Under the pieces are notes generated by a model. It was not told where the DNA came from. It worked only from the letters and a program-made list of their open reading frames with translations, and ran no database searches. DNA of 23,117 nt from a virus, in IMG/VR virus record IMGVR_UViG_3300013132_000275, positions 1-23,117 of that record. One strand, 5' to 3'. Shown here one piece after another: positions 2,767-21,448 of the stretch; position 1 is the first letter of the stretch, and each line of letters starts with the position of its first letter. The position numbers were made by a program, and so were the translations under genes.

Positions 2767-2776
2767 ATAAATATGC
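2767..2776 (-). promoter_or_regulatory. Repeated intergenic motif GCATATTTAT upstream of scaffold gene
   Basis: Sense-strand GCATATTTAT lies 43 nt before the scaffold ATG in the gap 2724-2850. It is one of eight near-identical copies in the window, all between genes and in the same orientation relative to the following minus-strand gene. It is a candidate phage promoter core or leader element; function is inferred. Confidence 0.5.
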
Positions 2777-2819
2777 AACAGTTGCGTAAATGATAAAAAA
2801 AAATTATATTTCGTTATAA

Positions 2820-2829
2820 ATAAATATGT
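2820..2829 (-). promoter_or_regulatory. Second repeated motif ACATATTTAT upstream of scaffold gene
   Basis: Sense-strand ACATATTTAT, about 96 nt before the scaffold ATG and just after the protease stop. The plus strand here reads TATAAATA (2815-2822), the exact T4 late promoter octamer but facing away from the gene. The doubled motif before the scaffold and capsid genes may reflect strong expression; this is an inference. Confidence 0.42.
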
Positions 2830-2850
2830 TAACTTCGTGTAAAAATTTTT

Positions 2851-3546
2851 TTATCCTAATAAAAATTTATCTAAACCGCTGATTATCTTACTTTTAGATT
2901 CCACAACCTCCATTTTCATTGGTTTGGATTCTTTCATATCATTGAATATCCAAGAGCCTGGTGTACTTGGATTAGTCACAATATCCCAACAAATCAATTC
3001 GAAATCGTTCTGAACCACTTGTATTCCATTAACATCTTCAACTGAACCGACACCTCTGGACGATACACCTATCTTGATTCTATGTCTTAAAAGATTGGCA
3101 ACTTGGTCACCCATGGTGGATACGATACCCATGTTAATGAAACCTGGCGACATTAGTATCTCAACCTTACCCATCATAACGTTACCCTCCCACCACATTT
3201 CAACAATGTTATGGGACACTCTATCACCAGCTATAATGGAAGCCTCTGGGTGGTCTAATTCACCTATGGCCCTTCTCTCATCAATAAGTACTTGATAAGC
3301 CTTTCCTTGTGACTTTAAAATATCTTCTGGGTATACACGACCATTACGGTTCTTAACACCGTATTTCTGCAATACAGCGTATACGTAATATGGTTCTGTG
3401 ATAACATTCGAGCCTTGCTCGAACTTCTTCATTTCATTTATAAAAGGCAGGTTGCGTTTGTCATCTGGGGATATGAAACCTGCATCGTGTTCGATGAGAT
3501 ATCCTTTACCAGTCTCGCCAGCCCTTAAAATCGATAGATTCGACAT
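2851..3546 (-). CDS. 21: Prohead core protease (T4 gp21-like)
   Basis: At 231 residues it is close to T4 gp21 in length. It carries the hallmarks of the gp21/assemblin-type serine protease family: ELDHP with candidate catalytic His99, GVSSRGVGS with candidate nucleophile Ser162 or Ser163 at about 64 residues spacing, and the following WDIVTNPS with Asp188 as possible third member. These enzymes sit in the prohead core, activate by self-cleavage, cut scaffold and capsid proteins after assembly and then digest themselves. Gene order protease-scaffold-capsid matches T4 21-22-23. The start is ATG at 3546, 14 nt downstream of a GCATATTTAT motif; no Shine-Dalgarno sequence is seen. Confidence 0.92.
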   Translation of the reverse strand: MSNLSILRAGETGKGYLIEHDAGFISPDDKRNLPFINEMKKFEQGSNVITEPYYVYAVLQKYGVKNRNGRVYPEDILKSQGKAYQVLIDERRAIGELDHPEASIIAGDRVSHNIVEMWWEGNVMMGKVEILMSPGFINMGIVSTMGDQVANLLRHRIKIGVSSRGVGSVEDVNGIQVVQNDFELICWDIVTNPSTPGSWIFNDMKESKPMKMEVVESKSKIISGLDKFLLG

Positions 3547-3560
3547 GTTTGCATTTTATA

Positions 3561-3570
3561 ATAAATATGC
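3561..3570 (-). promoter_or_regulatory. Repeated motif GCATATTTAT upstream of protease gene
   Basis: Sense-strand GCATATTTAT ends 14 nt before the protease ATG. If it is a -10-type element the mRNA leader would be only a few nucleotides long. Confidence 0.5.
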
Positions 3571-3586
3571 AATATGTCGATAAAAG

Positions 3587-4009
3587 TTATTTTTTTCTTT
3601 TGTTGAACTCCAAGTCGTCCATATATTGATTTTCAACCTTATTAATCAAGTATGAACAAAGGTTAATAACATCTTCACCAATTTCATTAAAATTCTTATT
3701 GGTGAATAAAGTTATATCTGATGACATGAAACTTTTCTTGGTTTTTTTTATTCCAGAACTTCTTAAATCTGTATCAACAATATATTTTGAAATCGTGTCA
3801 ACACTTGATAGATAAGTGTGTAGGTGCTTTCTAATATCTTTGTTAAGTTTTTTAACCAGTACTTCTGGGGTCAATTCAGATTGTTTGGGTCTGACCCATG
3901 TGTTTATGTTCACATATATGGATTTATTATCATTAAAATCCACGGTACCGTATTTTACCTTATGGTTTGTGAATGTGTTGATTTGATTAACTCTACCTTT
4001 TTTCTGCAT
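3587..4009 (-). CDS. Hypothetical protein, 140 residues
   Basis: I do not recognise this protein. It is basic and Lys/Asn-rich, with an N-terminal part that looks beta-rich (NHKVKYGTVDFNDNKSIYVN, residues about 15-34) followed by helices. There is no signal peptide or membrane segment. It sits between the protease and the cupin gene, where T4 has small prohead-core genes, so a head-assembly role is possible, but only from position. The start is ATG at 4009; the 73-nt gap before it (4010-4082) is AT-rich and holds no copy of the repeated motif. Confidence 0.72.
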   Translation of the reverse strand: MQKKGRVNQINTFTNHKVKYGTVDFNDNKSIYVNINTWVRPKQSELTPEVLVKKLNKDIRKHLHTYLSSVDTISKYIVDTDLRSSGIKKTKKSFMSSDITLFTNKNFNEIGEDVINLCSYLINKVENQYMDDLEFNKRKK

Positions 4010-4082
4010 TATTGTTACTTATTTTATTAAGTATAACAATAATTTTGTGTCGAGTCAAATTTTTTCATAAAAAAAGTTTATA

Positions 4083-4466
4083 TTAAGCGGCAATTTTTTT
4101 GACGACCTCTTGCTTATCGGTCATAACACAGAAAACATATGCCTCATCGATACATTTAATTTCGTGTTCTTGGCCTTTATCGTACACTATAGTATCACCT
4201 TTTGAATAAACCTCATTGGTCATTAAATCTACTATGATACCATCTCTAACTTGAAGTATCTCATACTCTTCAGAGTTATAATGCTTTGGTGTTTTCATAC
4301 CCTTATCATATCTAAGGAGAAACCCTTTATAACTGTCTGGTGTCATTATTCGCTTGCAATGTATGCCGTTACAGAAATCCAAAGCATTCCATGCATTATA
4401 ACTTGTTTGATTAACTAGAGCATCACTAGATACTTCCGTTACGATGGTATCATTCAGAACGTTCAT
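4083..4466 (-). CDS. Small single-domain cupin-fold protein
   Basis: A 127-residue protein with both cupin motifs in degenerate form. Motif 1 is G-x5-H-x-N-x4-E-x6-G (GMKTPKHYNSEEYEILQVRDG region), with Asn in place of the second His. Motif 2 is G-x5-D-x-G-x2-H-x3 (GDTIVYDKGQEHEIK), with Asp in place of the usual Pro. The first His, the Glu and the late His that bind metal in cupins are all present, so a metal site with an altered third ligand is plausible. Many cupins bind small molecules, sugars or act as dioxygenases; the substrate cannot be told here. The ATG at 4466 lies 1 nt after the stop of the upstream gene, so the two are probably translated together. Confidence 0.75.
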   Translation of the reverse strand: MNVLNDTIVTEVSSDALVNQTSYNAWNALDFCNGIHCKRIMTPDSYKGFLLRYDKGMKTPKHYNSEEYEILQVRDGIIVDLMTNEVYSKGDTIVYDKGQEHEIKCIDEAYVFCVMTDKQEVVKKIAA

Positions 4467-4467
4467 A

Positions 4468-5223
4468 TTACACCAAAGAATTTTTTAAGCCTATTATTCT
4501 GACCATATCGGTCTCATAACTATCATCATTATAATGCATCTCTAACAAGCGTTCTTTAACTGATAATAGTTTTTCTTTTACCGTGGTATCACTTTCAGAT
4601 AATTGAGCGTTTACAGCTTCGATACATTCTTTGACAACTTGTCTAAAGTTCTGCTCTTTTTTTTCACCGTTCTTCTCAACCACGGTTTTAATAATATTCA
4701 GTTCCGATTCAGACATGTCAGAATATTTTTTGTTAAAACGCTCTGATAATACCTTCACCAACATATCCGTAGGTACGTAATCAGATGACTCAACCAACTT
4801 AGGTTTATTAGCTTTAATATGCTCTTTTATCACATTCTTAGCCAAAGACTTTTCACTAGGCTTAGTAGATGACAACGCTCTATATATTGCAGAGTCCAAA
4901 TCAGACGTTTCAACGATAGCCTTACCACCTGTCAGCTTATCCAGTTCACTCTTGAATAGATTGTTAGCCGATTTAAGTTCTTTTGCCGAGAATTTCTTTA
5001 CGTTGGCAATAGATTCATTGATATATTCAGATATGGTGAAATCATCCTCAGAATGAAATTCGTCAAACTCCTCATATACCTTGAATTGGGCATTCAAAGC
5101 TGAATTCTCACGTATGAGCTTAAATACAGATTTAAGCGCTTTCTTATCATATGGTTTTTTGTCTACGATTGAATCAGTGACAAATTCTTTAAGTGTATCT
5201 AATAACGAACCGAAGTTATGCAT
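4468..5223 (-). CDS. Hypothetical helical protein between portal and protease (possible prohead core component)
   Basis: The 251-residue protein is predicted by eye to be almost wholly alpha-helical, highly charged (many Lys, Glu, Ser) and without Cys, membrane segments or known motifs. It follows the portal gene and precedes the protease region, which is the T4 gene 67/68 location; those encode prohead core proteins. The position and the charged helical character fit a core component, but I see no sequence motif that proves it. ATG at 5223 is 16 nt downstream of an ACATATTTAT motif. Confidence 0.75.
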   Translation of the reverse strand: MHNFGSLLDTLKEFVTDSIVDKKPYDKKALKSVFKLIRENSALNAQFKVYEEFDEFHSEDDFTISEYINESIANVKKFSAKELKSANNLFKSELDKLTGGKAIVETSDLDSAIYRALSSTKPSEKSLAKNVIKEHIKANKPKLVESSDYVPTDMLVKVLSERFNKKYSDMSESELNIIKTVVEKNGEKKEQNFRQVVKECIEAVNAQLSESDTTVKEKLLSVKERLLEMHYNDDSYETDMVRIIGLKNSLV

Positions 5224-5239
5224 GTGAAAGTATTTTCAT

Positions 5240-5249
5240 ATAAATATGT
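5240..5249 (-). promoter_or_regulatory. Repeated motif ACATATTTAT upstream of 251-residue protein
   Basis: Sense-strand ACATATTTAT ends 16 nt before the ATG at 5223. The complementary strand reads TATAAATA at 5239-5246, identical to the T4 late promoter octamer but pointing back into the portal gene. Confidence 0.5.
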
Positions 5250-5266
5250 TCATTATCAGTAATAGG

Positions 5267-8200
5267 TCATCTTTTTTTAACGGTCTCATCAATATTTTTC
5301 AGAATATCATTGATTTCCTCATTTAACATGAACCCCTTATCATACATTTTAACCTTATTTTCGTTAACAATCTTGTCGTGGTCAAACCTATTTACGGATT
5401 CCAAAAGTCTATCCATGTAAATGTCAGAATATTTTTTAACCCTAGACTCAACTTGTTTCTTGAGTCTAACAATTTCTTCCGTTAATAACTTTTCAGTTTT
5501 CTTAAATGATTCACCTATCTCTGGTACTGGTGCGGTTTCTGGAGTTTCAGCTTCAGCTGGGGCCTCTTCAGTCTCTGGTGTGGGTATTTCCTCACCACCT
5601 TCAGCTTCACCACCTTCGGCCTCACCGAATTCAGTGTCACCTCCTAAGTCACCTCCGAAACCTCCACCACCTCCGAAACCTCCACCACCGCCACCTCCGA
5701 AATCACCACCAGCGTCACCGCCAGCTTCACCTTCACCACCTTCTGGTAATACACCACCCATCTTTGCGATTTCTATATCACCATATAACTTATCAACCTT
5801 ATCAAACATACCTGTGTACTTAATAACGTTAGCGGTGTTAGCCAATTCAGCGGATGCCGCCTTTTCCATTCTCTGCTCCAACAGGTCTTGTCTGATTTCT
5901 TCATCATTCCAACCCAATATCTCTCTTCTGGCCCTAGTCAATGACATGACACCGAAACCATTACCTATATCAGATACAGCATCTTTCACCAGAGTTACTT
6001 TGGACTGTAAGTTCTGAATTCTCAACATCTGAGCCTGTGTCGATGGATTATTCATTGTGATGGTGAAATTATCCAACTCATCATCAAAACCTAATAGAAT
6101 AAGATGTATAATGGCAATCTTATTCAGTTCTTGTATAATAGCTTGTTGAATACGGTTAATAGTTCTTGCAAATCTGATATCCAAAAGAGCTAAATTCTTA
6201 CCTTCACCTTGAGCTTCATCGAAACCTAAGAATGCTTTAGGTACCCTTAACGCTGTGAAAAGTTTACGCTGAAGGTACTCAATATCTGCGATTTCTCCAA
6301 GGTTACTATTTTTAATAAACACACCACTTTCGGTTGCGAATGTGTGATAATTATGATAAATTTCGTTACCGTCTACGGTTATAGTACCAGTATCGATTGT
6401 ATCAGTCAACCATTCTATTGAAGTTATTTTATGGTTATATAATTCAACTTTATTTTTATCTTTTTCAATAAAATACCTCCAAGCTCTAAGATTCTTATAA
6501 CCTAATTCTAAAGCTTTGGTTTTTGACCATTCTCTATAATTGTTAAATCCTCTATCTTTCAACATTTTACTTAGATGGTTATGTGTAAATTCACCTAAAT
6601 TGGTTAATGAGCTTCTGATATCTGAATTTGGTTCATTGAATTCACGCATAAAGTCTTCTGACTGGTTCAATTCGGTTAATGCTAAATCGGCTCTACCAGT
6701 TAATTTAAACATTTCAAAAAACATATTATAAAGTTCATCAGTAAAAATTAAGTTTTGTTTTTTAGAGAAAACTTTATTTTTGTATTCTTCGGATTGCCAA
6801 TTAGTTTTAGCAATTTCAGAAAACTTCTCTTTGAATTCTAATGTAGATTTAGCTTTACTGATAGATTTACCTCTAGCCTTGATTATTTCTTCTCTATTAG
6901 GGTTATGTTTAAATGATTCAAGAGCTTTAACTCTAGAATTAATTGAATTTAATTTGGATTGGTTACCCCTAAATTTCTTTTCCTCTTCAGTTAGACTTGA
7001 TATGTAGTTATTTATACCATCAGTTATTTTTTTAGTTGTTGTACTATGTTTTTCAGGTGTCGACCAAAGTTCATGTCTATGATATCTATAATGATCCTTA
7101 GAATCCATAAAAAATAAATTTTTAGGATTATTATTAAACCTGTTATTATCCATGTGATGAATAGTCTTCATATTATCTTTTTCATAAGACCCTTCAAACG
7201 TGTGATATTGTTCATTATTACCTTCTTTCATAAACCAACTAACCATTCTATGTGTGTAGACCCATTCTTGTTTAGACGAATCCCAAATACGCTCATATTT
7301 TTTAGAATATTTTTTATTTAAAATATGCTCTTCATCCCTATAGAAAGGCATTAATGAATCACCGACAACCAAATCCTTAGCTTCGACAAATCCGTTAGTT
7401 CTATGAACCCATTTATGGTCTGGAGTTGTCGTGATGGATTCACCATTATCTAACGTGATTTTAATCACCTCAGCGTTCTTTCTAGTGACCCCTGCCCATG
7501 ATATAACACCTGGCGCTAGTTCTCCCGTAATCGGGTCACATGAATAAACCCACAAATCTCTATTACCGTTATCCCATTCATTTATTATTTGAGATAATTC
7601 TAGAGTTCGACCATCTAAAAGTGGTATACGAGTATCTAATGCGATACATGCCCCTGGCAAAGATTCAATAGGGCTAGGTGCAGACTCATCCCTGACAGGT
7701 ACAAAGATATCTTGGTCATTACCCAATACGTTCATCCTTAAATCCAACTGACCTGTTTTAGGGTCAATCACTGGCATTCTTTTGAATCTATTGGCAATTT
7801 CATTGATGTATGGTTGTACATCTTCTGGGTCCAAATTACCAACATATATTTTATAAACTCTTCGCTCTGGTGCTCTAGTGATACGATAAACCATCATCGC
7901 ATCTTCTGATAACAACAATAATTTCCATATGCGTCTGGCCTTTTCTAATACAGATGTGCCATATGGTAATCTTCTATCATCACCCAATAACCTGAAATGT
8001 GCAATCTGCCAATTCTGGAATTCGATGTCCTTACCCCTCCAATAGAATTTAACCTTATCTTCTCTTGGTTCACTACTATTTACTGCTCTAGAATAAACGG
8101 CATCGTAAATACCACCTTCTCTACGCTCAATTTCGAAGTTCGGTAATTGTTTTACGCCAGTCACACCTTTTTTATCGTCTGTATTTAAAAAGACAAAGTT

Positions 8201-8668
8201 ATCACCGTATTTCACCAAGTTCCTCACCCACATGGGTAAGCTGGTATGAATATCTAATCTGTTGAAAAATAAGTCCTCTAAAACACCTTTGACTCTAGGT
8301 GAATTTGAGTAAATATTAAGAACACGACCAATATCGTTTACTGTTGTCGCTTCTTCTGACATAATATCCAAAGTTGCAGCGATTTCTGGATAGAATTCCA
8401 TATTCTCAAAGTCAGAATAACCACCAATCCTAGTTATCTCGTATTGTATGGCTTTTTGGAATGTTTCATTCTCAACCTTCTGCCATAGACCGCTTAGGAA
8501 TTTATTCTGTCTAGCTTGTAGTGATTTAGTTTCAAATTCAGCTTTAGAAGTGGTTCTGATAAGCTCAGTCGGTGCTATGGAGTATTTATTACTTATCTTA
8601 TCTTGGTCTATACCAGACGGTGTGAATACGCTGGTAAGCCGTTGGAATATTGTTTGCTCTTTAGCCAT
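5267..8668 (-). CDS. 20: Portal vertex protein (T4 gp20-like) interrupted by an in-frame intein
   Basis: The precursor has 1133 residues. Removing the intein (341-787) leaves a 686-residue portal. The flanks join as ...IESLPGA + SNLGEIADIEYLQRKLFTAL..., the well-conserved gp20 segment. Other gp20-like parts are EFYPEIAATLDIMSEEAT (93-108 region), LVKYGDNFVF (151-160), YGTSVLEKARRIWKLLLLSEDAMMVYRITRAPERRV (about 236-271) and IRFARTINRIQQAIIQELNKIA (831-852). The portal dodecamer sits at one capsid vertex, starts head assembly and forms the channel through which the terminase pumps DNA. The C-terminal part carries an unusual Gly/Glu/Pro-rich stretch (976-1050) before a last helical segment (1055-1133). 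ATG at 8668; a degenerate motif copy (sense TTATATTTAC, 8682-8691) lies 13 nt upstream. Splicing is needed for function. Confidence 0.94.
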   Translation of the reverse strand: MAKEQTIFQRLTSVFTPSGIDQDKISNKYSIAPTELIRTTSKAEFETKSLQARQNKFLSGLWQKVENETFQKAIQYEITRIGGYSDFENMEFYPEIAATLDIMSEEATTVNDIGRVLNIYSNSPRVKGVLEDLFFNRLDIHTSLPMWVRNLVKYGDNFVFLNTDDKKGVTGVKQLPNFEIERREGGIYDAVYSRAVNSSEPREDKVKFYWRGKDIEFQNWQIAHFRLLGDDRRLPYGTSVLEKARRIWKLLLLSEDAMMVYRITRAPERRVYKIYVGNLDPEDVQPYINEIANRFKRMPVIDPKTGQLDLRMNVLGNDQDIFVPVRDESAPSPIESLPGACIALDTRIPLLDGRTLELSQIINEWDNGNRDLWVYSCDPITGELAPGVISWAGVTRKNAEVIKITLDNGESITTTPDHKWVHRTNGFVEAKDLVVGDSLMPFYRDEEHILNKKYSKKYERIWDSSKQEWVYTHRMVSWFMKEGNNEQYHTFEGSYEKDNMKTIHHMDNNRFNNNPKNLFFMDSKDHYRYHRHELWSTPEKHSTTTKKITDGINNYISSLTEEEKKFRGNQSKLNSINSRVKALESFKHNPNREEIIKARGKSISKAKSTLEFKEKFSEIAKTNWQSEEYKNKVFSKKQNLIFTDELYNMFFEMFKLTGRADLALTELNQSEDFMREFNEPNSDIRSSLTNLGEFTHNHLSKMLKDRGFNNYREWSKTKALELGYKNLRAWRYFIEKDKNKVELYNHKITSIEWLTDTIDTGTITVDGNEIYHNYHTFATESGVFIKNSNLGEIADIEYLQRKLFTALRVPKAFLGFDEAQGEGKNLALLDIRFARTINRIQQAIIQELNKIAIIHLILLGFDDELDNFTITMNNPSTQAQMLRIQNLQSKVTLVKDAVSDIGNGFGVMSLTRARREILGWNDEEIRQDLLEQRMEKAASAELANTANVIKYTGMFDKVDKLYGDIEIAKMGGVLPEGGEGEAGGDAGGDFGGGGGGGFGGGGGFGGDLGGDTEFGEAEGGEAEGGEEIPTPETEEAPAEAETPETAPVPEIGESFKKTEKLLTEEIVRLKKQVESRVKKYSDIYMDRLLESVNRFDHDKIVNENKVKMYDKGFMLNEEINDILKNIDETVKKR
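5519..5743 (-). repeat. Low-complexity Gly/Glu/Pro-rich segment in portal C-terminus
   Basis: Residues 976-1050 of the portal precursor consist largely of Gly runs broken by Asp, Phe and Glu (GGGGGGGFGGGGGFGG), then a Glu/Ala/Pro/Thr stretch. At DNA level it is a run of ACC and TCC triplets on the plus strand. It would be flexible and disordered. Such triplet tracts expand and shrink easily, so length may vary between related phages. Confidence 0.85.
6308..7648 (-). mobile_element. Intein with HNH homing endonuclease in the portal gene
   Basis: The intein spans residues 341-787 of the precursor (447 residues). Block A begins with Cys341 (CIALDTRIPLLDG). Block B has the TxxH motif at Thr415-Pro-Asp-His418 (SITTTPDHKWV), followed by FVEAKDLVVGDSL. 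The centre has an HNH-type nuclease: IHHMDNNRFNNNPKNLFFM (503-521) with further His at 526 and 530. The C-terminal blocks are DTGTITVDGNEIYHNYHTF and SGVFIKN, ending at Asn787, with Ser788 as +1 nucleophile. The residue before Asn787 is Lys, not the usual His. The region between the HNH motif and block F (about 540-745) is rich in Lys and Asn and may be a DNA-binding part. Splice junctions fit the uninterrupted gp20 sequence exactly. Intein identity is very secure; endonuclease activity is inferred. Confidence 0.93.
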
Positions 8669-8716
8669 AATAACTTTTTAAGTAAATATAATCGAATTTG
8701 ATTAAAAATGAATTAT

Positions 8717-8959: not shown

Positions 8960-8972
8960 ATTTAGGTGTTCT

Positions 8973-11900
8973 TTATATATAATTATTGAATCCTCCGAAA
9001 AGCCACATGTATTCACCAGTGGGGTCTTGCATATTTTTTGCTACCATTGGACTAAAGTTTGGTTTTTTAGATTCTTTTCTGACAGGCGCCTCCGTTGATT
9101 TAACATCACCAGCCATTGAGAAAGACACCCAACTGGCAAGCATAGCCTTAGTTCTGGTCTCATTTGCCTTTAACTGCTTAAAAGAGTGTTCTAGAACAAA
9201 TAAGGCCATAGCCATGGCCATAATCAAGTCATCATGTTTATTCTTAGCGTGGTCAGCTCTACCGTTTATATAAACAAAAGAATGTAACTCAGATATAAGT
9301 CTTGCCGAACGTATTTTTATACCGTGATTATCACCTTCATCTTTATTTATTCTGACCATTTTTTCAAAAGTCGAGACCAATCTAGTTCTATCACTACCAA
9401 CTTGGAATCCAGCAATTTCATTTTCTGAATTATATTTATGCATATCTTTACGCTTCTTAAGCGCTTGACCCCCCTTCTCACCATAATATAGGTTGGGATA
9501 TTTCATATCTTGTAGTTTCAAGATGGTGGCAACGCCCATACCTCCAGTGATATCCACAACTAATAATGCGTTATATAATGTACCGTATTCAAATAGTATA
9601 TCAGCCAACTTATCAGGTGGGATTCTACCCATATATTCAGCAACTTGTGTCATAGTGGTGAAATCTATAACGGTGAATGTAGAATAATCTTCACCATCTC
9701 CCCTAGATACGTCACAGTTATGCGTTGTTATATGGTGACACATGAACGTATGTGTGTCACATTCAAAATTATACACATTTCCAGTAAAAGTTTCTTTTAC
9801 AATGTCTTTTACTCTAAAATAAATAAATTTTTTATCTTTACTAAAATGACAAGAACTTATAATCCTATTATTTTTAGTTTCAAATTGATTTATATCGAAC
9901 TTATTTAATTTTGGGTCTAAGGGGTCGTTATTTAATAGATTTATCAAATCTAAACTATCTTGGTTTGCTAATGTTAAACTATACGCTTGTTTCACACTAA
10001 CAGTTCTACCTCCAATTATATGTTTTTTAGCACTCCTCAACTTATTCAAAGATGATACGATACCTAATGAAAATATAATATCTTGAAAACTTTCTAACAA
10101 TTCTAAATTTACGGACGTAAAAGAAACCTTAGAATTAGTTTTTCCTTTTTTATCGGTTTTTAACCAACAACCATCACTAGCTAAATAACCCTTAATTAAT
10201 TCTATTTTATGTTTTTTATCGATATATTTCACCCATTCCGATATTTTTTTACCATGTGAATACCTACCAAAATTTTCAAGTAAAAAATGATATAAAAATT
10301 TAGAGGTGAAAATTAGGTTATATGTATTATTTTGTTTATCAACAAATGAAGCTTTTCTATTAAATAACCTATCAATCAGGTTATCTAATTTATCCAAATA
10401 ATATTCATCGTTAGAATTAAAACATACACTTATACTGTAATGATGGTTTCTTTGACTCAACCACCCATCACCTAACCATAACCCAATAAACCACCAAAAT
10501 TCAGGATTGTTTAATGGTGATTTTATATCAAAATCATATCTAGTATTAGCAGATATAGTCCATTTATCGTCTAAAGCACCATCAAGCTTTTTATCGTATA
10601 TGTTAGGTACTTTAACCCAATCACCGACTTCTATTTCACCGACCTTTTTATATTTAAAATCGAAATCCCAATATCTTTCATTAAACCTATAAATGTTATG
10701 TTGTTTATCATAATTACGTTTTAATACGGGTTTACTGATTAAAATGGGGTGTTCTTTTGTGAATCTAGTTCTTCTAAACGTGTTATCTACTTTGATGTCA
10801 TATACATCTTCATTCACGACAGGGTATATTTGTTTGTTAATAATATTAACATAATCACCATTTTCACAAACTAACTTATCGTTAAGTTCAACATCTTCTA
10901 TATTGATTAACCCTCTATCTGTCAACACTTTTTCATTTGGAGGTAAACAACCTAAAATGTACTCATGACCCTCAATAGGTTGTTCCCATATCCACAATTC
11001 ACTTTCTCGACCACTTAAGAATACTGGGTCTTTAACATTTTTATTTTTATGATGCTCGATATATTCATCAGATATGACATTACCCCCAGAACCTAAGAAG
11101 GAAACATCCAATTCTTGGGCAATCATACGAGGGTCATTATTCATACCACGACACATCTCCTCATACCAAGGTGATGTTGGTTTATAGCCGTCCTTTAACT
11201 TTTTATCATATGATTCAAAGGTGAAGTCCTCCTCATCAATAACCTCTTTGTTTTTTTTATCCTTATCGGTGTATTTATACCATTTTAGACCTATGTTATA
11301 TCGGTCATCTTGGTACCATCTCATTTCAATTATATTGAAATTATTTTGTTTTTTTAAAGCTAAATCATAGGTTTCATAATATAATTCATCGAGGCCATTT
11401 GGGGTTGAAATGAGTATGGCCCGACCTCCAGTACCTAAAGCGGTAAGCGCTGCACCAAATAAATCTTTACCATCGTCAATGAACGCAGCTTCGTCCATAA
11501 TAAGAACTGTAGGTGTATAACCTCTAAGCGCGTCTGGTGATGTCGCAACAGCCTTTACCCTACAACCGTTAGGTAACTTGATTTCTTTTTTTGAGTCAGA
11601 ACTGAAGATGCTCTTTTTTTCCTTCTCAGGTGTGCCGTAATAATCTGGACCCCAAACCCACCTAGGTAATTGGTCTAAGAAATATTTTATCTTAGCCAAG
11701 AATTCAAAGGCCATATCCTGTTTGTTAGCTACAATCAATATAGCCTCTGGATTATTCTCGTCAGCGAAACCCAATAGAACTGAGCTAGAAGCCGCCACAG
11801 TTGTGGATACACCTGCTTGTCTAGGTTTGGCTACTATATTGAATCTATGGTCTTTAAGAGATTTTACAATCTCTTTTTGTTTGCGGAATAATTTAAACGG

Positions 11901-12011
11901 TACATAACCGTTTCTTGTTTTATCAAACGTTTTAAAATACGTCTCAATTACATAAATCGGGTCGACAAGACAATTGGCGTATTCCTTATATATCTCAGTT
12001 GCAGTAAGCAT
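8973..12011 (-). CDS. 17: Terminase large subunit (T4 gp17-like) interrupted by an in-frame intein
   Basis: The precursor has 1012 residues; without the intein (355-765) it has 601, close to T4 gp17 (610). ATPase domain: Walker A-like PRQAGVST (63-70), Walker B TVLIMDEAAF (168-177, Asp173/Glu174) and coupling motif ISTPNG (201-206). Nuclease domain (RNase H fold): CDVSRGDGEDYSTF, with Asp767 matching the first catalytic Asp of T4 gp17, then VVDITGG (Asp820) and KHDDLIMAMAMA (Asp927/Asp928). The enzyme pumps DNA into the prohead through the portal and cuts concatemers. No gp16-like small subunit is evident in the window. ATG at 12011 is 20 nt downstream of a GCATATTTAT motif. Confidence 0.95.
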   Translation of the reverse strand: MLTATEIYKEYANCLVDPIYVIETYFKTFDKTRNGYVPFKLFRKQKEIVKSLKDHRFNIVAKPRQAGVSTTVAASSSVLLGFADENNPEAILIVANKQDMAFEFLAKIKYFLDQLPRWVWGPDYYGTPEKEKKSIFSSDSKKEIKLPNGCRVKAVATSPDALRGYTPTVLIMDEAAFIDDGKDLFGAALTALGTGGRAILISTPNGLDELYYETYDLALKKQNNFNIIEMRWYQDDRYNIGLKWYKYTDKDKKNKEVIDEEDFTFESYDKKLKDGYKPTSPWYEEMCRGMNNDPRMIAQELDVSFLGSGGNVISDEYIEHHKNKNVKDPVFLSGRESELWIWEQPIEGHEYILGCLPPNEKVLTDRGLINIEDVELNDKLVCENGDYVNIINKQIYPVVNEDVYDIKVDNTFRRTRFTKEHPILISKPVLKRNYDKQHNIYRFNERYWDFDFKYKKVGEIEVGDWVKVPNIYDKKLDGALDDKWTISANTRYDFDIKSPLNNPEFWWFIGLWLGDGWLSQRNHHYSISVCFNSNDEYYLDKLDNLIDRLFNRKASFVDKQNNTYNLIFTSKFLYHFLLENFGRYSHGKKISEWVKYIDKKHKIELIKGYLASDGCWLKTDKKGKTNSKVSFTSVNLELLESFQDIIFSLGIVSSLNKLRSAKKHIIGGRTVSVKQAYSLTLANQDSLDLINLLNNDPLDPKLNKFDINQFETKNNRIISSCHFSKDKKFIYFRVKDIVKETFTGNVYNFECDTHTFMCHHITTHNCDVSRGDGEDYSTFTVIDFTTMTQVAEYMGRIPPDKLADILFEYGTLYNALLVVDITGGMGVATILKLQDMKYPNLYYGEKGGQALKKRKDMHKYNSENEIAGFQVGSDRTRLVSTFEKMVRINKDEGDNHGIKIRSARLISELHSFVYINGRADHAKNKHDDLIMAMAMALFVLEHSFKQLKANETRTKAMLASWVSFSMAGDVKSTEAPVRKESKKPNFSPMVAKNMQDPTGEYMWLFGGFNNYI
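9717..10949 (-). mobile_element. Intein with LAGLIDADG homing endonuclease in the terminase gene
   Basis: The intein spans residues 355-765 (411 residues). Block A starts at Cys355 (CLPPNEKVLTDRGLINIEDV). Block B has Thr418-Lys-Glu-His421 (FTKEHPIL). Two dodecapeptide motifs of the LAGLIDADG class are present: FIGLWLGDGWL (508-518, Asp515) and LIKGYLASDGCW (605-616, Asp613), about 98 residues apart, as in a single-chain enzyme. The C-terminus is GNVYNFECDTHTFMCHHITTHN with penultimate His764, Asn765 and Cys766 as +1. Excision joins ...HEYILG to CDVSRGDG..., restoring the first nuclease motif. All residues needed for class 1 splicing are present. Confidence 0.95.
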
Positions 12012-12031
12012 AAATTATTGTTTCTTTAACA

Positions 12032-12041
12032 ATAAATATGC
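12032..12041 (-). promoter_or_regulatory. Repeated motif GCATATTTAT upstream of terminase gene
   Basis: Sense-strand GCATATTTAT ends 20 nt before the terminase ATG, in the short gap 12012-12055 after the 417-residue gene. Member of the eight-copy motif family. Confidence 0.5.
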
Positions 12042-12055
12042 TGATAATGAGAATA

Positions 12056-13309: not shown

Positions 13310-13311
13310 GA

Positions 13312-14413: not shown

Positions 14414-15906
14414 CTGCTTGCTTTAGGTTTTGTACTAGGTCTTGTTGCTGGAGGTGTGAAAGGTGAATCACCAACTTTGCGTTTAGGGGTTCTTTCCACA
14501 TCTGGTTTAACCTCTGGCTCAACAATAGCAGGTTCACTCATTCTTTCATCCTTCTCGTATCTATAAATACCAATCACCTCATCAATTTTTTCTGATTCAA
14601 CAAATTCTTTCAACATATTTTTTATCAAAGATACGGTATTTTCGCTTTTCTTACCCCATTTTTCTCCTTTACCTTTTGTTTTGCAAGCCGATGGTGTCGG
14701 TCTGCAAGATGGATATTTGGCCCTTTCCTCACCTTCTTTGCGACCACAAGGTTTGCATTTTTTTCTACCAGTATCTGGGTCTTTTCTACATGTATTACAA
14801 TCTACCCAACCTTGAGAACCCTCACCGCCACGTCTTTCAAACCAACCATGTAAACCTTTTGATTTTTCTTTTGAATAATCGGTTTTTTCTGATAAATTAT
14901 CATAAACTTCATATGTGTTCTCATCAACCACGCTTGGGTAATTCTCATAGTCATCATTCTCATCGAAAAGTTCAATCGACACGATACCATCTTCACCCCA
15001 GATACACCCACTGGCAACATCCCAAGGATAATACCACATCATCGACATTCTAGCTTTATTGATATATGGGTTTATTTCAATGCCAGCATATTTTTCAGCC
15101 ACCCTAACCCAATCAATATATACGTAATTTGGACCCATACCACTAATCTGACTACCATATTCATTAGTGAAAGCCACTAATTCATCATAAGAACTAATCC
15201 TTAGCACTCTATTCTTATTAATCTTAACAATATGGATGTGGTCTGTTTCCCAGTCAGGCATTTCACTTTTTACCCATTCTACCCAAGAATCCCCAAATCC
15301 GTACCAAAAACCTATAGGTTTTGAACCGACTTTTTGTTTGTCTATGGGAGTTGGTCTGAAATTTATTTTTTCCTCATGTGACATGACAACTCGGATATCC
15401 CGATATGACGTTAACATGTAAGCCATATAATCTGATACTTCATTAACATCAGATTCACCTTCTTCCAAACCCTCAGATTTATTACCCCAATTCTTAGCAC
15501 CCACCTTTCTGCACTGAACTAAGGCACCTGACCCGTAGGCCGATGGCCAGACCGAGTACCTACTTTTGACTTTATAATAGCAAGCGTCTTTCTTACCCTT
15601 ACCTTTTTTCTTAGCCTCATCCAATGAGTCGAATTCTTGGATTTCAACTACTAAGTTGCTATCGCCTTTAATGACTCTATGGTATGTTTCTTTAGGTATG
15701 ATAACTGATTCACCTATAATTAATTTCTTAGGTAAATCGTTATCAAATTGAATCATCCAATCAGATTCATTAACGACCGTTACAAGACGGTCTTTTTTAT
15801 CCTTGTGCCAAGTCAATTCATGAGAATCAGTATTAGCATCAAAAACTCGTTTAATGATACCAGATTCTAGTATTTCCTGTGTATATGGTCTATTACTTTT
15901 GGACAT
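14410..15906 (-). CDS. Multidomain protein: cupin-like part, Cys motifs and zinc-ribbon-like module
   Basis: A 498-residue mosaic. Residues 29-92 look like a degraded cupin (WHKDKK, then GESVIIPKETYHRV with G-x5-P-x4-H). Residues 104-143 hold a basic Cys module ending WPSAYGSGALVQCRKVGAKN (Cys109, Cys132). Residues 168-315 form an aromatic-rich domain of unknown type with SKPIGFWYGFGDSWVEW, YIDWVRVAEKYAGIEI and WDVASGCIWG; a distant resemblance to ADP-ribosyltransferase-type folds crossed my mind but no catalytic triad can be defended. Residues 352-421 hold a metal-binding-like module: CNTC (370-373), CKPC (384-387), then Cys401 and Cys408. The tail is Pro/Lys-rich. ATG at 15906 is preferred to far-upstream non-ATG codons because it gives the 14-nt overlap with the previous gene. 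Probably virion-associated, from context only. Confidence 0.82.
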   Translation of the reverse strand: MSKSNRPYTQEILESGIIKRVFDANTDSHELTWHKDKKDRLVTVVNESDWMIQFDNDLPKKLIIGESVIIPKETYHRVIKGDSNLVVEIQEFDSLDEAKKKGKGKKDACYYKVKSRYSVWPSAYGSGALVQCRKVGAKNWGNKSEGLEEGESDVNEVSDYMAYMLTSYRDIRVVMSHEEKINFRPTPIDKQKVGSKPIGFWYGFGDSWVEWVKSEMPDWETDHIHIVKINKNRVLRISSYDELVAFTNEYGSQISGMGPNYVYIDWVRVAEKYAGIEINPYINKARMSMMWYYPWDVASGCIWGEDGIVSIELFDENDDYENYPSVVDENTYEVYDNLSEKTDYSKEKSKGLHGWFERRGGEGSQGWVDCNTCRKDPDTGRKKCKPCGRKEGEERAKYPSCRPTPSACKTKGKGEKWGKKSENTVSLIKNMLKEFVESEKIDEVIGIYRYEKDERMSEPAIVEPEVKPDVERTPKRKVGDSPFTPPATRPSTKPKASR

Positions 15907-16153: not shown

Positions 16154-16168
16154 TAGTTTAATTGTATA

Positions 16169-16813
16169 TTATTTTTTTTCTATTTTATAAAAAAAGTCAT
16201 CTTTATCACCTGATGTCCACTTAAGGCCGTCCTCGCAATAAAAATTATTGGTAGACACTTTAAAATCAGGTATCGTAACACCATTAGGTGTTAACGATTG
16301 GTCATAGAATAACACCCTATTGTTAGGTTGGGCGGCAAATTGCCCATTATCTAATTTTATGATATTGAAACTTTTATGTTCGTTAGGTGTTTCAGATAAA
16401 GAAACATTCAACTCATTAGGTTCGCTGTGACAACTATCTATGGTGAATATATATGAACCATCATATAGTTTTTTATCTTTCATAAGTACCTTACATTTTA
16501 AGTTACTTAACGTTGTTTTGGTTAACACGGATATGTGATAAGAAAAAGCGTCCCATATCTCAATATAATCTAAGGGTAATAATTCACCTATATTTAAATC
16601 AGTTTTCCACACATATGCTGATATCGGTAACTTATCATACAATGCACCATATTTAGTCAACAGGCTTTCAATATATAAAGCCTTACCCTTAATCGATTTT
16701 ACCGACACCCAATAACAAGGCTCGTATTCACCATGACCACTTTGGAAGTCATAGAGAAATTCCTTTCTTACGAAACATTGTATCGGTGGTAAATTTGCGA
16801 TTAAATAACTCAT
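16169..16813 (-). CDS. Conserved phage protein of unknown function, 214 residues
   Basis: The sequence (MSYLIANLPPIQCFVRKEFL, then HGEYEPCYWVSVKSIKGKAL, GALYDKLPISAYVWK, SETPNEHKSFNIIKLDNGQF and IPDFKVSTN) matches my memory of a family common in T4-like and other large myoviruses and annotated only as hypothetical. The strong conservation of such segments among distant phages suggests a core role, possibly structural. No membrane segment or known catalytic motif is visible. ATG at 16813; spacing to the upstream gene is 25 nt. Confidence 0.85.
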   Translation of the reverse strand: MSYLIANLPPIQCFVRKEFLYDFQSGHGEYEPCYWVSVKSIKGKALYIESLLTKYGALYDKLPISAYVWKTDLNIGELLPLDYIEIWDAFSYHISVLTKTTLSNLKCKVLMKDKKLYDGSYIFTIDSCHSEPNELNVSLSETPNEHKSFNIIKLDNGQFAAQPNNRVLFYDQSLTPNGVTIPDFKVSTNNFYCEDGLKWTSGDKDDFFYKIEKK

Positions 16814-16838
16814 AGTTTATATACATTCTTTGTTATTA

Positions 16839-18173: not shown

Positions 18174-18193
18174 ACCATCAGCCTTAGTCTCGC

Positions 18194-19015
18194 TCAGAGT
18201 TTTTTTTTTACTGTCATATTCTCAAGAATTGACATGATTTCTTCTTTTGAAAGTGACTGTAGGATTTCTTCAGCTTCTGACAATTTTTGTTTTTTCTTTT
18301 CGCCAGTAACAACTGAAACAACCTCATCCAGTTTTTCAAGTGTAGAAAGCAGACTCATTGGTTGTTTTACAACGATGTTACCTTCCTTAACCACAACGTC
18401 TTTACCTTTACCTGTGAGAATGTTATTGATGCGCATTTCATTTTCAGTCAATTTAACATCTTCAAACTCATCGATAACATCTTTATCGGCAACGTTATCA
18501 CCGAAACCGTCCTTAGCTTTACCTTCTTTACTGTCAAATGACAAAGCTTTACCCGCCTTATCAACAACATACTCTTGGCTATCACCCATACCCTTTGTAG
18601 CGGAAAGTTTCTGGTCAGATTTATAAGGGTGATGTTCTGATACAAGTTTATCATTTATGAACATGTTAGCATCAGACTTGATACCGAGTGATTCACACAG
18701 TGACATGAATTTTAGATTCAATTGCTTGATAGCCTTTGCGTAAGATGGATAAACAAAAGATTTTTTATTCTTAAGTCCACCTATATAATCGAAACTTTCT
18801 TTTGTAAGATTAGTAGAGTTCTCTGCGATTTTAATATAGTATTCATGGTTTTCTCTTACAATACCATATACTTTACCATCAGGGCCAAGTTTAGTTAACT
18901 CAATTACCGAACGGTCAACGTTCTCTTTAATGGGGGTCTGATTCATGAGTTCCATGATTCTGTCCATTTGTTCTTTACCCTTAAGACCTGTTGGTTTAAT
19001 TGCTGTTCTTTTCAT
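18194..19015 (-). CDS. Hypothetical protein, 273 residues
   Basis: Function unknown. Residues about 35-115 form a compact-looking domain (LGPDGKVYGIVRENHEYYIK, FDYIGGLKNKKSF, YPSYAKAIKQLNLKFMSL) which I believe recurs in large-phage proteins. It is followed by a polar, probably disordered part (130-185) and a helical C-terminus with NEMRINNILTGKG and SLSKEEIMSILENMT. There is no membrane segment. It follows the small beta-rich gene by 12 nt and is probably in the same transcript. Confidence 0.8.
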   Translation of the reverse strand: MKRTAIKPTGLKGKEQMDRIMELMNQTPIKENVDRSVIELTKLGPDGKVYGIVRENHEYYIKIAENSTNLTKESFDYIGGLKNKKSFVYPSYAKAIKQLNLKFMSLCESLGIKSDANMFINDKLVSEHHPYKSDQKLSATKGMGDSQEYVVDKAGKALSFDSKEGKAKDGFGDNVADKDVIDEFEDVKLTENEMRINNILTGKGKDVVVKEGNIVVKQPMSLLSTLEKLDEVVSVVTGEKKKQKLSEAEEILQSLSKEEIMSILENMTVKKKL

Positions 19016-19027
19016 TTTTTTATTGTT

Positions 19028-19297
19028 TTAAGCTACGGGGCCTCCATAGCCCCCTATTATAGACGTTCCTAACATAACATTGATAGGTACACCCAATAAG
19101 TAAATATCTCCACTAACGCTAGATATACTATTAATCATGATGTCAAAATGACTACCTGCCGCCAAACTCACCGATGTACCATTTATTGTCGCGGTACCGC
19201 CAATTGTTCCAGCGTATATTTTCATATATGTGTATGCGCTAAGCGTTGCTCCGCTAGCTGGGTGTATGATTGGTGGTATACCGTGAAAACTTGACAT
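19028..19297 (-). CDS. Small beta-rich protein, paralogue of next gene (possible decoration or fibre protein)
   Basis: An 89-residue protein dominated by Gly, Ser, Thr, Ile and Val with alternating hydrophobic residues, typical of beta-sandwich or fibre folds. Its first 80 residues are about two-thirds identical by hand alignment to the product of 19345-19794 (shared HPASGATLSAYTY, IMINSIS, IYLLGVPINV). It ends soon after the shared domain. No function is proven; a capsid-surface or fibre-tip role is a guess from composition and the neighbouring head genes. ATG at 19297 lies 17 nt downstream of a GCATATTTAT motif. Confidence 0.8.
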   Translation of the reverse strand: MSSFHGIPPIIHPASGATLSAYTYMKIYAGTIGGTATINGTSVSLAAGSHFDIMINSISSVSGDIYLLGVPINVMLGTSIIGGYGGPVA

Positions 19298-19314
19298 ATC
19301 TATATTTTATAATA

Positions 19315-19324
19315 ATAAATATGC
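19315..19324 (-). promoter_or_regulatory. Repeated motif GCATATTTAT upstream of small beta-rich gene
   Basis: Sense-strand GCATATTTAT ends 17 nt before the ATG at 19297, in the gap 19298-19344 between the two paralogues. Confidence 0.5.
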
Positions 19325-19344
19325 AGATATCACCAAAATGATAA

Positions 19345-19794
19345 TTAATTGAAAATTATTGTACCACTGTTGTTAACGGTACCATTATTTATTATTGTAC
19401 CACCTGTTATAATCAATGTACCGCCAGCTTCGATAACCAAAGTACCATTAACAGTCAAGTTACCATTAACTGTATATGTTTCACCAGCATATATGGTGAA
19501 TGTACCGTTAACTGGGTTAGGCATAGTGAGTTGCTGCGGTATATAACCACTTAATGTCGGTGTACCTTGGAACACATTGATAGGAACGCCCAATAGATAT
19601 ATATTACCCACGACATCAGATATTGAGTTAATCATTATCTGTATGGTTGAAGCTTCGGACAGTATGAACGGTATACCATTCACTGTCGCTGAACCACCAC
19701 CTGTACCGACATATACATGAAAATATGTATAGGCGCTTAAAGTTGCACCACTGGCTGGGTGTATGATTGAAGGTACTCCGTGAAAAGCCGACAT
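19345..19794 (-). CDS. Beta-rich protein with beta-solenoid-like tail (possible fibre or decoration protein)
   Basis: The 149-residue product has the same N-terminal 80-residue domain as its neighbour at 19028-19297, plus a C-terminal extension (about 95-149) built of short repeats: TYTVNGNLTVNGTLVIEAGG, then TLIITGGTIINNGTV and NNSGTIIFN. Repeating hydrophobic-Asn-Gly/Gly-Thr units of this kind are typical of right- or left-handed beta-solenoids in phage fibres and adhesins. It may therefore be an elongated surface protein. Function is not shown. ATG at 19794 lies 17 nt downstream of a GCATATTTAT motif. Confidence 0.82.
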   Translation of the reverse strand: MSAFHGVPSIIHPASGATLSAYTYFHVYVGTGGGSATVNGIPFILSEASTIQIMINSISDVVGNIYLLGVPINVFQGTPTLSGYIPQQLTMPNPVNGTFTIYAGETYTVNGNLTVNGTLVIEAGGTLIITGGTIINNGTVNNSGTIIFN

Positions 19795-19811
19795 GTCTAG
19801 ATTATTTTATT

Positions 19812-19821
19812 ATAAATATGC
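19812..19821 (-). promoter_or_regulatory. Repeated motif GCATATTTAT upstream of beta-solenoid gene
   Basis: Sense-strand GCATATTTAT ends 17 nt before the ATG at 19794 and begins at the last base of the TAG stop of the 43-residue gene. The other strand reads TATAAATA at 19811-19818. Confidence 0.5.
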
Positions 19822-19952
19822 TAAAAACAAATATCACCATCCGAAGTAGGCGTGAATACACATCCGTCAATAAATTCCTTATCTCGGCTATCCGACTCTG
19901 ATATTAATTCCTCATCAATCGGCTCTATAGGGAGTTCATTTAGCTCCTCCAT
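19821..19952 (-). CDS. Short acidic protein, 43 residues
   Basis: An ATG at 19952 opens a 43-codon frame ending in TAG at 19821-19823. The product is acidic (MEELNELPIEPIDEELISES at the start) and ends ...DGDICF. It overlaps the upstream membrane-protein gene by 13 nt and fills the space to the next motif exactly, which matches the packed style of this cassette. It is the only gene in the window that ends in TAG. Moderate confidence because of its size; function unknown. Confidence 0.5.
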   Translation of the reverse strand: MEELNELPIEPIDEELISESDSRDKEFIDGCVFTPTSDGDICF

Positions 19953-20266
19953 TTTTTCAAGATGTTACCTATAACTTCTTTCATCAGATAACCTGTCATC
20001 ACCAAACCTATCAATATTGGTGGATATATGAAAATCAGCGGAAACTCAACCAATTCATGTAACATCCAGAATATATTAAGCGATAACCAAGAGGTTAGAA
20101 TGCCGTTCTCAAGTTGATTATCCTTCTCACTGATGAGCATGTATAACGCTATGACTGAAGTTGGTATTATCATGAATACAGCTAATTTAGTTAGCCCAAA
20201 ACACCAGAAAATATCCTTTAACAGCCAGAATGCTATATGCAACCTCCCCAATTCATTTTTCAACAT
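19940..20266 (-). CDS. Small multi-pass membrane protein, 108 residues
   Basis: Hydrophobic segments at about 10-23 (HIAFWLLKDIFWCFG), 25-45 (LTKLAVFMIIPTSVIALYML), 56-70 and 74-95 suggest three or four membrane spans, with a basic C-terminus (LKKWRS). Function unknown. Size and topology would allow a holin-like role, but nothing specific supports it. Its ATG overlaps the end of the SpeD-like gene by 7 nt, so the two are probably co-translated. Confidence 0.75.
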   Translation of the reverse strand: MLKNELGRLHIAFWLLKDIFWCFGLTKLAVFMIIPTSVIALYMLISEKDNQLENGILTSWLSLNIFWMLHELVEFPLIFIYPPILIGLVMTGYLMKEVIGNILKKWRS

Positions 20267-20643
20267 CTGCCAGCTTCTATTATCTTAAAACCATCATTTC
20301 TATCTATCAGCATCCATTCTGCTGATATCAACTCAAATTCATTTAAATGTTCGATAATCTCTTTTGAATCAAAACAACTGCATGAATACAAATCGAATTG
20401 AAACATAGGTGGTGTATTCTTATCCCAAATATGTATGGACGCGTGACTTGTGGCCAATGTTACCGTACCTGTCAACCCCTCGTTACCTTCTTCAGATACA
20501 TATACTGATGTCGGGCCAGCGACAACTACCATCCTGACTCTGTTAACCAACCTAATAAACCAATCATTTAACTTGTCTACTTCAGTTGGTGGATTATGGC
20601 AAGTACCTTTAACAAGTATGTGTAGATGGTCTGGTGTAAACAT
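20260..20643 (-). CDS. speD: AdoMet decarboxylase-like pyruvoyl enzyme (SpeD family)
   Basis: The 127-residue protein matches the short bacterial S-adenosylmethionine decarboxylase family in length and motifs. The self-cleavage region reads TSHASIHIW (65-73), equivalent to ESHLSIHTW in known SpeD; Ser66 would become the pyruvoyl group. His71 and Cys88 (FQFDLYSC) correspond to the processing His and the catalytic Cys. The N-terminal HLHI strand is typical. SpeD makes decarboxylated AdoMet for spermidine synthesis, but some SpeD-like proteins, including viral ones, act on ornithine or arginine, so the substrate is open. The Glu normally before the cleavage Ser is Thr here. ATG at 20643 is chosen over an upstream TTG at 20667 because that codon lies inside the motif at 20657-20666, and 13 nt spacing from motif to ATG matches the other genes. 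Confidence 0.85.
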   Translation of the reverse strand: MFTPDHLHILVKGTCHNPPTEVDKLNDWFIRLVNRVRMVVVAGPTSVYVSEEGNEGLTGTVTLATSHASIHIWDKNTPPMFQFDLYSCSCFDSKEIIEHLNEFELISAEWMLIDRNDGFKIIEAGRC

Positions 20644-20656
20644 TCTTTTTTTCTTG

Positions 20657-20666
20657 ATAAATATCA
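20657..20666 (-). promoter_or_regulatory. Variant motif TGATATTTAT upstream of speD-like gene
   Basis: Sense-strand TGATATTTAT ends 13 nt before the ATG at 20643. It differs from the other copies in the first two bases but keeps ATATTTAT and the spacing. Confidence 0.42.
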
Positions 20667-20667
20667 A

Positions 20668-21423: not shown

Positions 21424-21440
21424 GTTAGTTTACTTTTTAT

Positions 21441-21448
21441 CAAAGATA
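21441..21448 (-). promoter_or_regulatory. Bacteroidota-type -7 box TATCTTTG (leftward)
   Basis: The sense strand reads TATCTTTG, a full match to the TAnnTTTG -7 element of Bacteroidota housekeeping promoters. A clear -33 TTTG at about 20 nt upstream is not seen (only T-rich sequence), so the call is moderate. It would drive the minus-strand cassette from 21423. Confidence 0.45.

Follow-up and report, generated by a model that had tools for sequence, protein, structure and literature searches.

Genes and motif copies in the window

The window analysed here, a 23,117-nucleotide stretch of viral DNA, carries on its minus strand a set of genes for virion assembly. Specifically, the gp23-like major capsid protein gene (1..1464; PHROG 138, E 5e-43), truncated by the window end, is preceded by an acidic scaffold-like gene (1497..2723), which had no match in a PHROG search and was recognised from the open reading frame list and from its place between the protease and capsid genes, like that of gp22 in T4. 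The gp21-like head maturation protease gene (2851..3546; PHROG 207, E 2e-41) comes next. ORF 4468-5223 (hereafter ORF5223) lies beyond it, and 8973..12011 holds the gene for a gp17-like large terminase subunit (TerL; PHROG terminase large subunit) with an intein-like insertion.

An earlier note on this DNA had listed seven copies of RCATATTTAT and one variant, all in gaps between genes and in one orientation relative to the next gene, six of the eight ending 13-20 nt before an ATG. Our exact-match search and matrix scan, together with the measured distances, bear this description out. The exact motif occurs seven times (2767, 2820, 3561, 5240, 12032, 19315 and 19812), always on the minus strand, which is the gene strand; shuffled versions of the window gave a mean of 0.35 and a maximum of 2. 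The shorter ATATTTAT occurs nine times, namely in these seven sites, in the TGATATTTAT variant at 20657 and in a single plus-strand copy at 9432, within the TerL coding sequence. Non-coding DNA makes up 3.9% of the window and holds all eight motif sites, the 20657 copy counting as intergenic if its gene begins at the ATG near 20643 instead of the mechanically called TTG at 20667. A position matrix for the putative late box, built from relatives only, the window and its near kin being kept out of the training set, returned the same eight sites with scores of 12.4 to 21.2 and none on the opposite strand, whereas a Markov null gave 0.5 sites above a score of 9.

All eight putative late-promoter boxes are on the minus strand. 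The scaffold-like gene is preceded by two of them, the first (ACATATTTAT, 2820..2829, score 19.4) 96 nt and the second (GCATATTTAT, 2767..2776, score 16.7) 43 nt before its ATG, with a TTT upstream of each (2841..2843 and 2788..2790). This gene opens the scaffold-capsid unit, whose only boxes are these two, the capsid gene having none of its own. The protease gene is served by GCATATTTAT at 3561..3570 (score 20.1; 14 nt before the ATG; upstream TTT at 3582..3584), ORF5223 is preceded at 16 nt by ACATATTTAT at 5240..5249 (score 21.2), and TerL is served at 20 nt by GCATATTTAT at 12032..12041 (score 17.2). Two further GCATATTTAT boxes stand 17 nt before ORF 19028-19297 (19315..19324, score 18.9, upstream TTT at 19336..19338) and 17 nt before ORF 19345-19794 (19812..19821, score 12.4), a TTT at the exact offset being absent from the latter. 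The last box, ATATTTAT in its TG-ATATTTAT form (20657..20664, score 16.3; upstream TTT at 20678..20680), lies 13 nt before the ATG of a SAM-decarboxylase-like gene. The degenerate copy before the portal gene (8682), also proposed earlier, was rejected as a regular member, because its matrix score falls under the threshold and a site is present in only 6 of the 55 orthologues of the portal gene.

On the other strand, the T4-type octamer TATAAATA does occur at 2815, 5239 and 19811, opposite to the genes, as had been noted before; further copies lie inside genes at 14562 (+), 7016 (-) and 11279 (-). A different kind of box, TAnnTTTG, of host type and to be contrasted with the late box, is found on both sides of the divergent gap of the window, as TACCTTTG (21497..21504, plus strand) before the gene for an ATP-dependent protease (ClpA/B/C-like) at 21535 and as TATCTTTG (21441..21448, minus strand) before the gene starting at 21423.

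Conservation and geometry of the element

Among orthologues 26-95% identical, presence of the box is all-or-none gene by gene. It was found upstream of the protease in 60 of 63 cases, of the scaffold gene in 36 of 40, of ORF5223 in 50 of 57 and of TerL in 27 of 40, but before none of the 56 major capsid protein orthologues, none of the 61 of ORF4009 and no internal genes of operons. Some non-structural genes are preceded by it as well. In the jumbo relative LR756508 no box appeared in the 100 kb examined. A literature search, covering few subscription papers, found no earlier description of the motif.

A strand bias was seen as well. In 70 relatives anchored on the capsid gene, the exact motif was found 133 times in intergenic sense orientation and never in intergenic antisense orientation, and matrix sites faced the next gene in 254 cases and opposed it in 6. 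The 80 loci anchored on a sigma gene, which have genes on both strands, gave 68 sites with the gene and 5 against, while ATATTTAT upstream of their genes counted 167 sense and 12 antisense copies. All five opposing sites fall in divergent gaps. When upstream 8-mers were ranked de novo, ATATTTAT showed the top sense-antisense excess in Mel-JY01 (14/0) and one of the strongest in immuto (14/1). In the window as in its relatives, a motif search of the kind that had been suggested as a check shows a bias to the gene strand and to upstream gaps.

The fuller element reads TTT-N13-ATATTTAT-N4-AAA, the box often being RCATATTTAT; the earlier note had missed two of its parts, a TTT that precedes the box by 13 nt and an A-run 5-7 nt beyond it. 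With sites selected by the 8-mer alone, 78% of the terminator-free head-region sites had TTT at exactly -16..-14 relative to the box, and its frequency was at most 0.23 at offsets beyond that T-run. Across four whole genomes (G007, G016, G005, G002) it accompanies about 40-60% of the sites, and it is lost in G011 (1/14) and in immuto; therefore, it is an accessory, non-universal part of the promoter. The A's persist with the ATG 35-110 nt away, and are thus anchored to the box, independently of the start codon. In addition, 47 of 139 non-redundant sites (34%) directly follow an intrinsic terminator, compared to 7 of 150 control genes (5%). RNAalifold gave no consensus on the scaffold leaders, whose stems MAFFT apparently misaligned.

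The sigma factor of the relatives and the competing readings

A gp55-like sigma factor, the reader that had been proposed as a search target, has a candidate in the relatives. Their late region, including that of the nearest kin of the window, encodes a syntenic sigma-like protein of about 240 residues. Of 19 records, 13 match PHROG 234 (the gp55 family) and 17 match Sigma70_r2. The protein is annotated merely as 'hypothetical', even in isolates. Its gene is not contained in the 23 kb fragment; the genome of the window would carry it about 9 kb past the window edge if gene order is that of the nearest kin. The best VIA match of the predicted structure is T4 gp55 (7d7c_F, Z 9.6, rmsd 3.5, 114 residues), several other sigma chains scoring within 1 of that Z, and hhalign against RpoD region 2 gave a probability of 70 (E 4e-5). 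The ~242-aa protein has sigma region 2, with its core-binding and -10 recognition segments.

The C-terminal region of this protein, about 100 residues long, is conserved and has an HTH-like register (LETMRNYTNLSTKDIR). Its assignment as sigma-4 is unsupported: hhalign gave a probability of 0.7%, and the fold search found no fold match, the best Z being 4.7 to unrelated helical proteins for a model of pLDDT 65. A phrog_12791 search gave no match. Nor do the C-termini, for example LLKHHGL, show an obvious T4-like sliding-clamp epitope. A covariation of TTT with the sigma C-terminus looked promising at first, and it is not claimed because TTT content varies between sites of one genome. It is possible, though doubtful, that the C-terminal region is a sigma-4 equivalent that reads TTT, which would make a one-piece late sigma for a two-part late promoter. 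If true, this would contrast with T4, where late sigma is split into gp55 and gp33 held by the sliding clamp; a fused late sigma has been noted by the T4 field as not found (PMC2988020). The T4 clamp gp45 was undetected in the relatives with PHROG 223 or PF09116, a search that gives a signal on T4 itself and that a diverged clamp might escape. The same search was silent on Mel-JY01, although that phage is annotated with a clamp-loader gene.

On these grounds, and from sequence comparison, we consider it likely that the motif forms the -10-like core in a late promoter of the phage, read most probably by the phage-encoded gp55-related sigma. This option, already raised before, is favoured because of the sense bias, the position conserved per gene, the adjoining terminators, the fixed-spacing upstream element and the gp55-like sigma in relatives. 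The best of the competing readings, which we hold to be improbable, is a promoter whose reader is the primary sigma of the host or an RpoD-like sigma of the phage, with a variant -7 box and perhaps an activator at TTT. The late box shares the -12 to -5 register of the Bacteroidota primary promoter (-33 TTTG / -7 TAnnTTTG, read by sigma-ABfr) and presumably the same host polymerase; if CATATTTA is aligned one base upstream, A-11 and T-8 T-7 T-6 are common to both. T4 middle promoters, where an activator box also stands about 12 nt from the -10, offer a parallel, and several relatives carry RpoD-like sigmas of 270-300 residues, which could also read the box. However, these occur in only some relatives and the gp55-like sigma in nearly all. 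In the late box, A replaces the near-invariant host G-5, and T-12 gives way to C or any base. Its sole conserved upstream element is TTT at 13-14 nt, far from the host spacing of 17-23 nt. Both box types also coexist in the same genomes, TTG-N17-23-TAnnTTTG upstream of genes giving sense/antisense counts of 50/6, 29/5 and 24/4 in three kin.

Much less probable are two further options raised earlier, both rejected because of the strand bias, the distances and the flanking sequence. As a leader-RNA signal for ribosomes working without Shine-Dalgarno, the box would fit its usual place 11-21 nt before the ATG, and Bacteroidota do favour A-rich leaders (PMC6847099); against this, the start codon may stand anywhere from 11 to about 97 nt away, with TTT and AAA keeping their spacing to the box, terminators lie directly upstream of it, and internal operon genes lack it. 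The second option, antisense RNA driven into the gene behind by the T4-like ATAAATA of the other strand, has in its favour the exact TATAAATA copies there. It is opposed by a motif that follows gene orientation also where genes lie on both strands, by the tight box-to-start distance and conserved flanks in the sense direction, and by the terminator of the gene behind, which often adjoins the box. That an AT-rich word is enriched by chance because the gaps are themselves rich in A and T, an idea to which we give practically no weight, is refuted by the 14-fold strand asymmetry of the sigma-anchored loci and by the all-or-none pattern per orthologue, in addition to the shuffle and Markov nulls. 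In conclusion, the element is a promoter, and neither a translation signal nor an antisense promoter.

Proposed late promoter and comparison with T4

In the mechanism that we propose, TTT - 13 nt - ATATTTAT - 4 nt - AAA points toward the following gene, and transcription would start on the A-run or beside it, some 5-7 nt downstream of the box. The predicted leaders are then about 9-16 nt long at six of the eight sites, those of the scaffold gene measuring about 39-92 nt, so that the earlier expectation of nearly leaderless mRNAs holds only roughly. The few late operons driven in this way, all of them short, would be TerL, ORF5223 with the next two genes, the protease, and the scaffold with the major capsid protein. 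The gp55-related sigma would act on host RNA polymerase, and the TAnnTTTG promoters would be retained for other, presumably early, genes. That the promoter class is late is suggested by the homology of the downstream genes.

The motif is thus very probably the start signal of the late, virion-building genes in a large group of T4-related Bacteroidota viruses, most of them uncultured. For this very large group it would supply both a signal by which late genes can be read and a candidate for the late sigma, making operon and early/late annotation possible directly from contigs. Since some promoters here have a fixed-spacing upstream element, they also form a natural contrast to T4, in which the question of why late sigma is split becomes testable.

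Like the T4 late promoter (TATAAATA, served by gp55, gp33 and gp45), the element has an AT-rich box of 8 bp, roughly one helix turn before the start, and an AT-rich stretch downstream, precedes head and tail genes (here the protease, scaffold and TerL orthologues) and goes with a phage-encoded gp55-like sigma, found here in relatives. Unlike in T4, the sense box is ATATTTAT; TATAAATA does not hold the sense position (about -13 to -6), and in G016, for example, it occurs upstream of genes 16 times in sense and 40 times in antisense. The resemblance of the motif to a T4 box in reverse is apparently accidental: it had been framed as a T4 promoter on the wrong strand, and the sense TATTTAT is itself a plausible -10 element. 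On the T4 late region, which offers too few clear gaps upstream of genes, the same pipeline found a weak TATAAATA bias (9 vs 6), so that it cannot serve as a calibrated control. In T4 the sliding clamp substitutes for a -35 element. Many sites here have TTT 13 nt upstream, whereas the -35 region of T4 late promoters is not conserved (PMC2988020). A late box that has drifted within one lineage, in company with a diverged gp55, has been described before in Aeh1 (CTAAATA; PMC1524935) and is a parallel to the present case. In the other T4-like phages (KVP40, 44RR, S-PM2; Aeh1), however, the late box either is TATAAATA or differs from it by one to two bases, and the present box is not derivable by such steps. 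As for the sigma factors, T4 gp55 (PHROG 234; PDB 7d7c chain F) shares the sigma region 2 fold with that of the relatives, whose top structural match it is, but the sequence similarity of the two is weak (13% in the structural alignment), and the T4 protein has 185 residues and the relatives' about 240, with a conserved C-terminal region and no obvious clamp-binding C-terminus of T4 type.

A probable late-promoter box in the window and in its relatives

The window is a portion of a T4-like myovirus, encoding a gp23-like MCP, a scaffold-like gene, a gp21-like protease, a portal (5267-8668, with tblastn matches to portal proteins), TerL (8973-12011) and, on the plus strand, an ATP-dependent protease; in both the portal and TerL an intein-like insertion interrupts the family match. 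Among named phages, Flavobacterium phage immuto (160 kb) and Microcystis phage Mel-JY01 are closest to it, together with metagenomic jumbo phages. The eight motif copies reported in the earlier note, seven exact RCATATTTAT (2767, 2820, 3561, 5240, 12032, 19315 and 19812) and a variant at 20657, were confirmed on the minus (gene) strand, all of them intergenic, in a window of which 3.9% is non-coding; shuffles of the window predict 0.35 copies, compared to the seven exact ones found. When a position matrix was built from relatives, excluding the window and its near kin, it recovered exactly the same eight sites of this putative late box and none on the opposite strand; under a Markov null, 0.5 sites would pass the threshold used and 0.02 would exceed 14. 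The adjoining ORFs 19028-19297 and 19345-19794, each preceded by a late box, have very similar N-terminal halves (MS.FHG.P.IIHPASGATLSAYTY...) and are likely a tandem duplication.

The strand bias, for which the same note proposed a motif search, is evident in the loci of relatives. Specifically, in the MCP-anchored set (70 relatives from IMG/VR) the exact intergenic motif occurs 133 times in sense and never in antisense orientation, while with a wider matrix 254 sites point to the next gene and 6 are opposed. A further 80 loci were collected around the sigma gene; they have genes in both directions and a few contigs in common with the first set. Here 68 sites versus 5 were counted, all five opposed ones lying in divergent gaps, and the core ATATTTAT is found upstream of genes 167 times in sense and 12 in antisense. 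ATATTTAT is also the upstream 8-mer with the top sense-antisense excess in Mel-JY01 (14/0); in immuto TATATTTA ranks first (23/2) and ATATTTAT reaches 14/1, the genes that follow it including terL and those for tail sheath, tail tube and baseplate hub.

Across relatives the box is all-or-none by orthologue, and the window shows the same pattern. It precedes orthologues of the protease (60/63), scaffold (36/40), ORF5223 (50/57) and TerL (27/40), but only 6/55 of those of the portal and none of those of the MCP (0/56), ORF4009 (0/61), the cupin-like gene (0/12) and ORF13309 (0/20). The transcription units would accordingly be short: TerL, with or without the genes behind it, ORF5223 with the next two genes, the protease, and scaffold plus MCP. 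The scaffold-MCP leaders of relatives carry a small stem-loop (AAATGAG...CTCAT) that starts within a few nt of the presumed 5' end (L055:8669-8728, L036:8722-8783 and 18 other loci); its pairing is kept with changed bases, z is negative against simple shuffles in 20/20, and it is perhaps an mRNA stabiliser.

Anatomy of the element

The 82 non-redundant exact sites show a TTT upstream and A's downstream, both at fixed positions. With sites chosen on the 8-mer alone, TTT occupied -16 to -14 from the box at 78% of 92 terminator-free sites, compared to a fraction of at most 0.23 at offsets outside that T-run; it is therefore not merely the T-tract of the intrinsic terminator that lies just upstream of 47/139 sites (versus 7/150 control genes). 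Present at the exact offset in 5/8 window boxes and at about 40-60% of sites in four whole genomes (G007, G016, G005 and G002), and nearly absent in G011 and immuto, the TTT is an accessory element in part of the clade. The A's at +5 to +7 are kept at sites with the ATG 8-25 nt downstream (0.91/0.76/0.95) and also at those with the ATG 35-110 nt downstream (0.72/0.79/0.69), so they belong to the box and not to the start codon; the A-run is the predicted melting and start region.

Candidate reader and host

The search for a gp55-like sigma factor, also suggested earlier, led to a protein of about 242 aa in relatives, encoded on the strand opposite to the MCP, about 8-10 kb away, which matches PHROG 234 (T4 gp55 family) in 13/19 records and Pfam Sigma70_r2 in 17/19. 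At least 580 stretches encode it in a second scan. Such a protein is encoded by L008, the window's closest kin with an MCP 93% identical, and immuto gp118 (L079:28174-28872) and Mel-JY01 WWT39502.1, both annotated as hypothetical, are homologues. The top VIA match of its AlphaFold model (pLDDT 71, pTM 0.40) is T4 gp55 in the late open complex (Z 9.6, rmsd 3.5, 114 residues), closely followed by further sigma chains (8.0-9.5), as expected of a sigma-2 domain; hhalign to RpoD region 2 is consistent with this assignment. Conservation includes the C-terminal ~100 aa, which finish with an HTH-like stretch and could conceivably be a sigma-4 equivalent. Three homologues measure 318 aa, one of which (L030:12272-13228) has a ~75-aa insertion near the N-terminus. 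In addition, some relatives encode an RpoD-like sigma, 270-300 aa long (G007 near 128923, G016 near 176668 and 288158, G003 near 2451), whose closest bacterial homologues, for G007, are mostly from the FCB group; a phage-type one (55% identity) is encoded on a Prochlorococcus sp. AG-409-L21 single-cell contig (L288), possibly a phage contig within the assembly.

Upstream of genes, TTG-N17-23-TAnnTTTG occurs 50/6 (sense/antisense) in G016, 29/5 in G003, 24/4 in G002 and 16/0 in Mel-JY01, with five more genomes similar; the same genomes hold two putative promoter classes, the late box and this host-type one. In the divergent gap of the window (21424-21534) TAnnTTTG is present on both sides and the late box on neither, all late boxes running from 20664 leftward. 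The flavobacterial -7 box spans -12 to -5 (PMC9723704; PMC6847099), a register that ATATTTAT takes if transcription begins with the first base of the A-run. The host-type promoters and this shared register make a member of the Bacteroidota the most likely host. Mel-JY01 (PP395634.1, L159-L164), listed with host Microcystis elabens, has bacteroidetal-type promoters (16 sense, 0 antisense) and clusters with a Flavobacterium phage; its host label may be wrong.

Comparison with T4-type late promoters

In T4 the late promoter, TATAAATA, occupies -13 to -6 and lacks a conserved -35 element; gp55 reads it together with gp33 and the sliding clamp (PMC2988020; PMC1524935). The late box described here has another sequence and, often, an element upstream; it therefore falls outside the T4 consensus. 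Its likeness to an inverted T4 box, pointed out in the earlier note, is best taken as coincidence, because AT-rich boxes resemble each other on either strand. In Aeh1, the late box has drifted along with gp55 (PMC1524935). Like the T4 promoter, the late box is a short AT box before head genes, and a gp55-like sigma is encoded in relatives; in its predicted working, if not in its consensus, it resembles the T4 late promoter.
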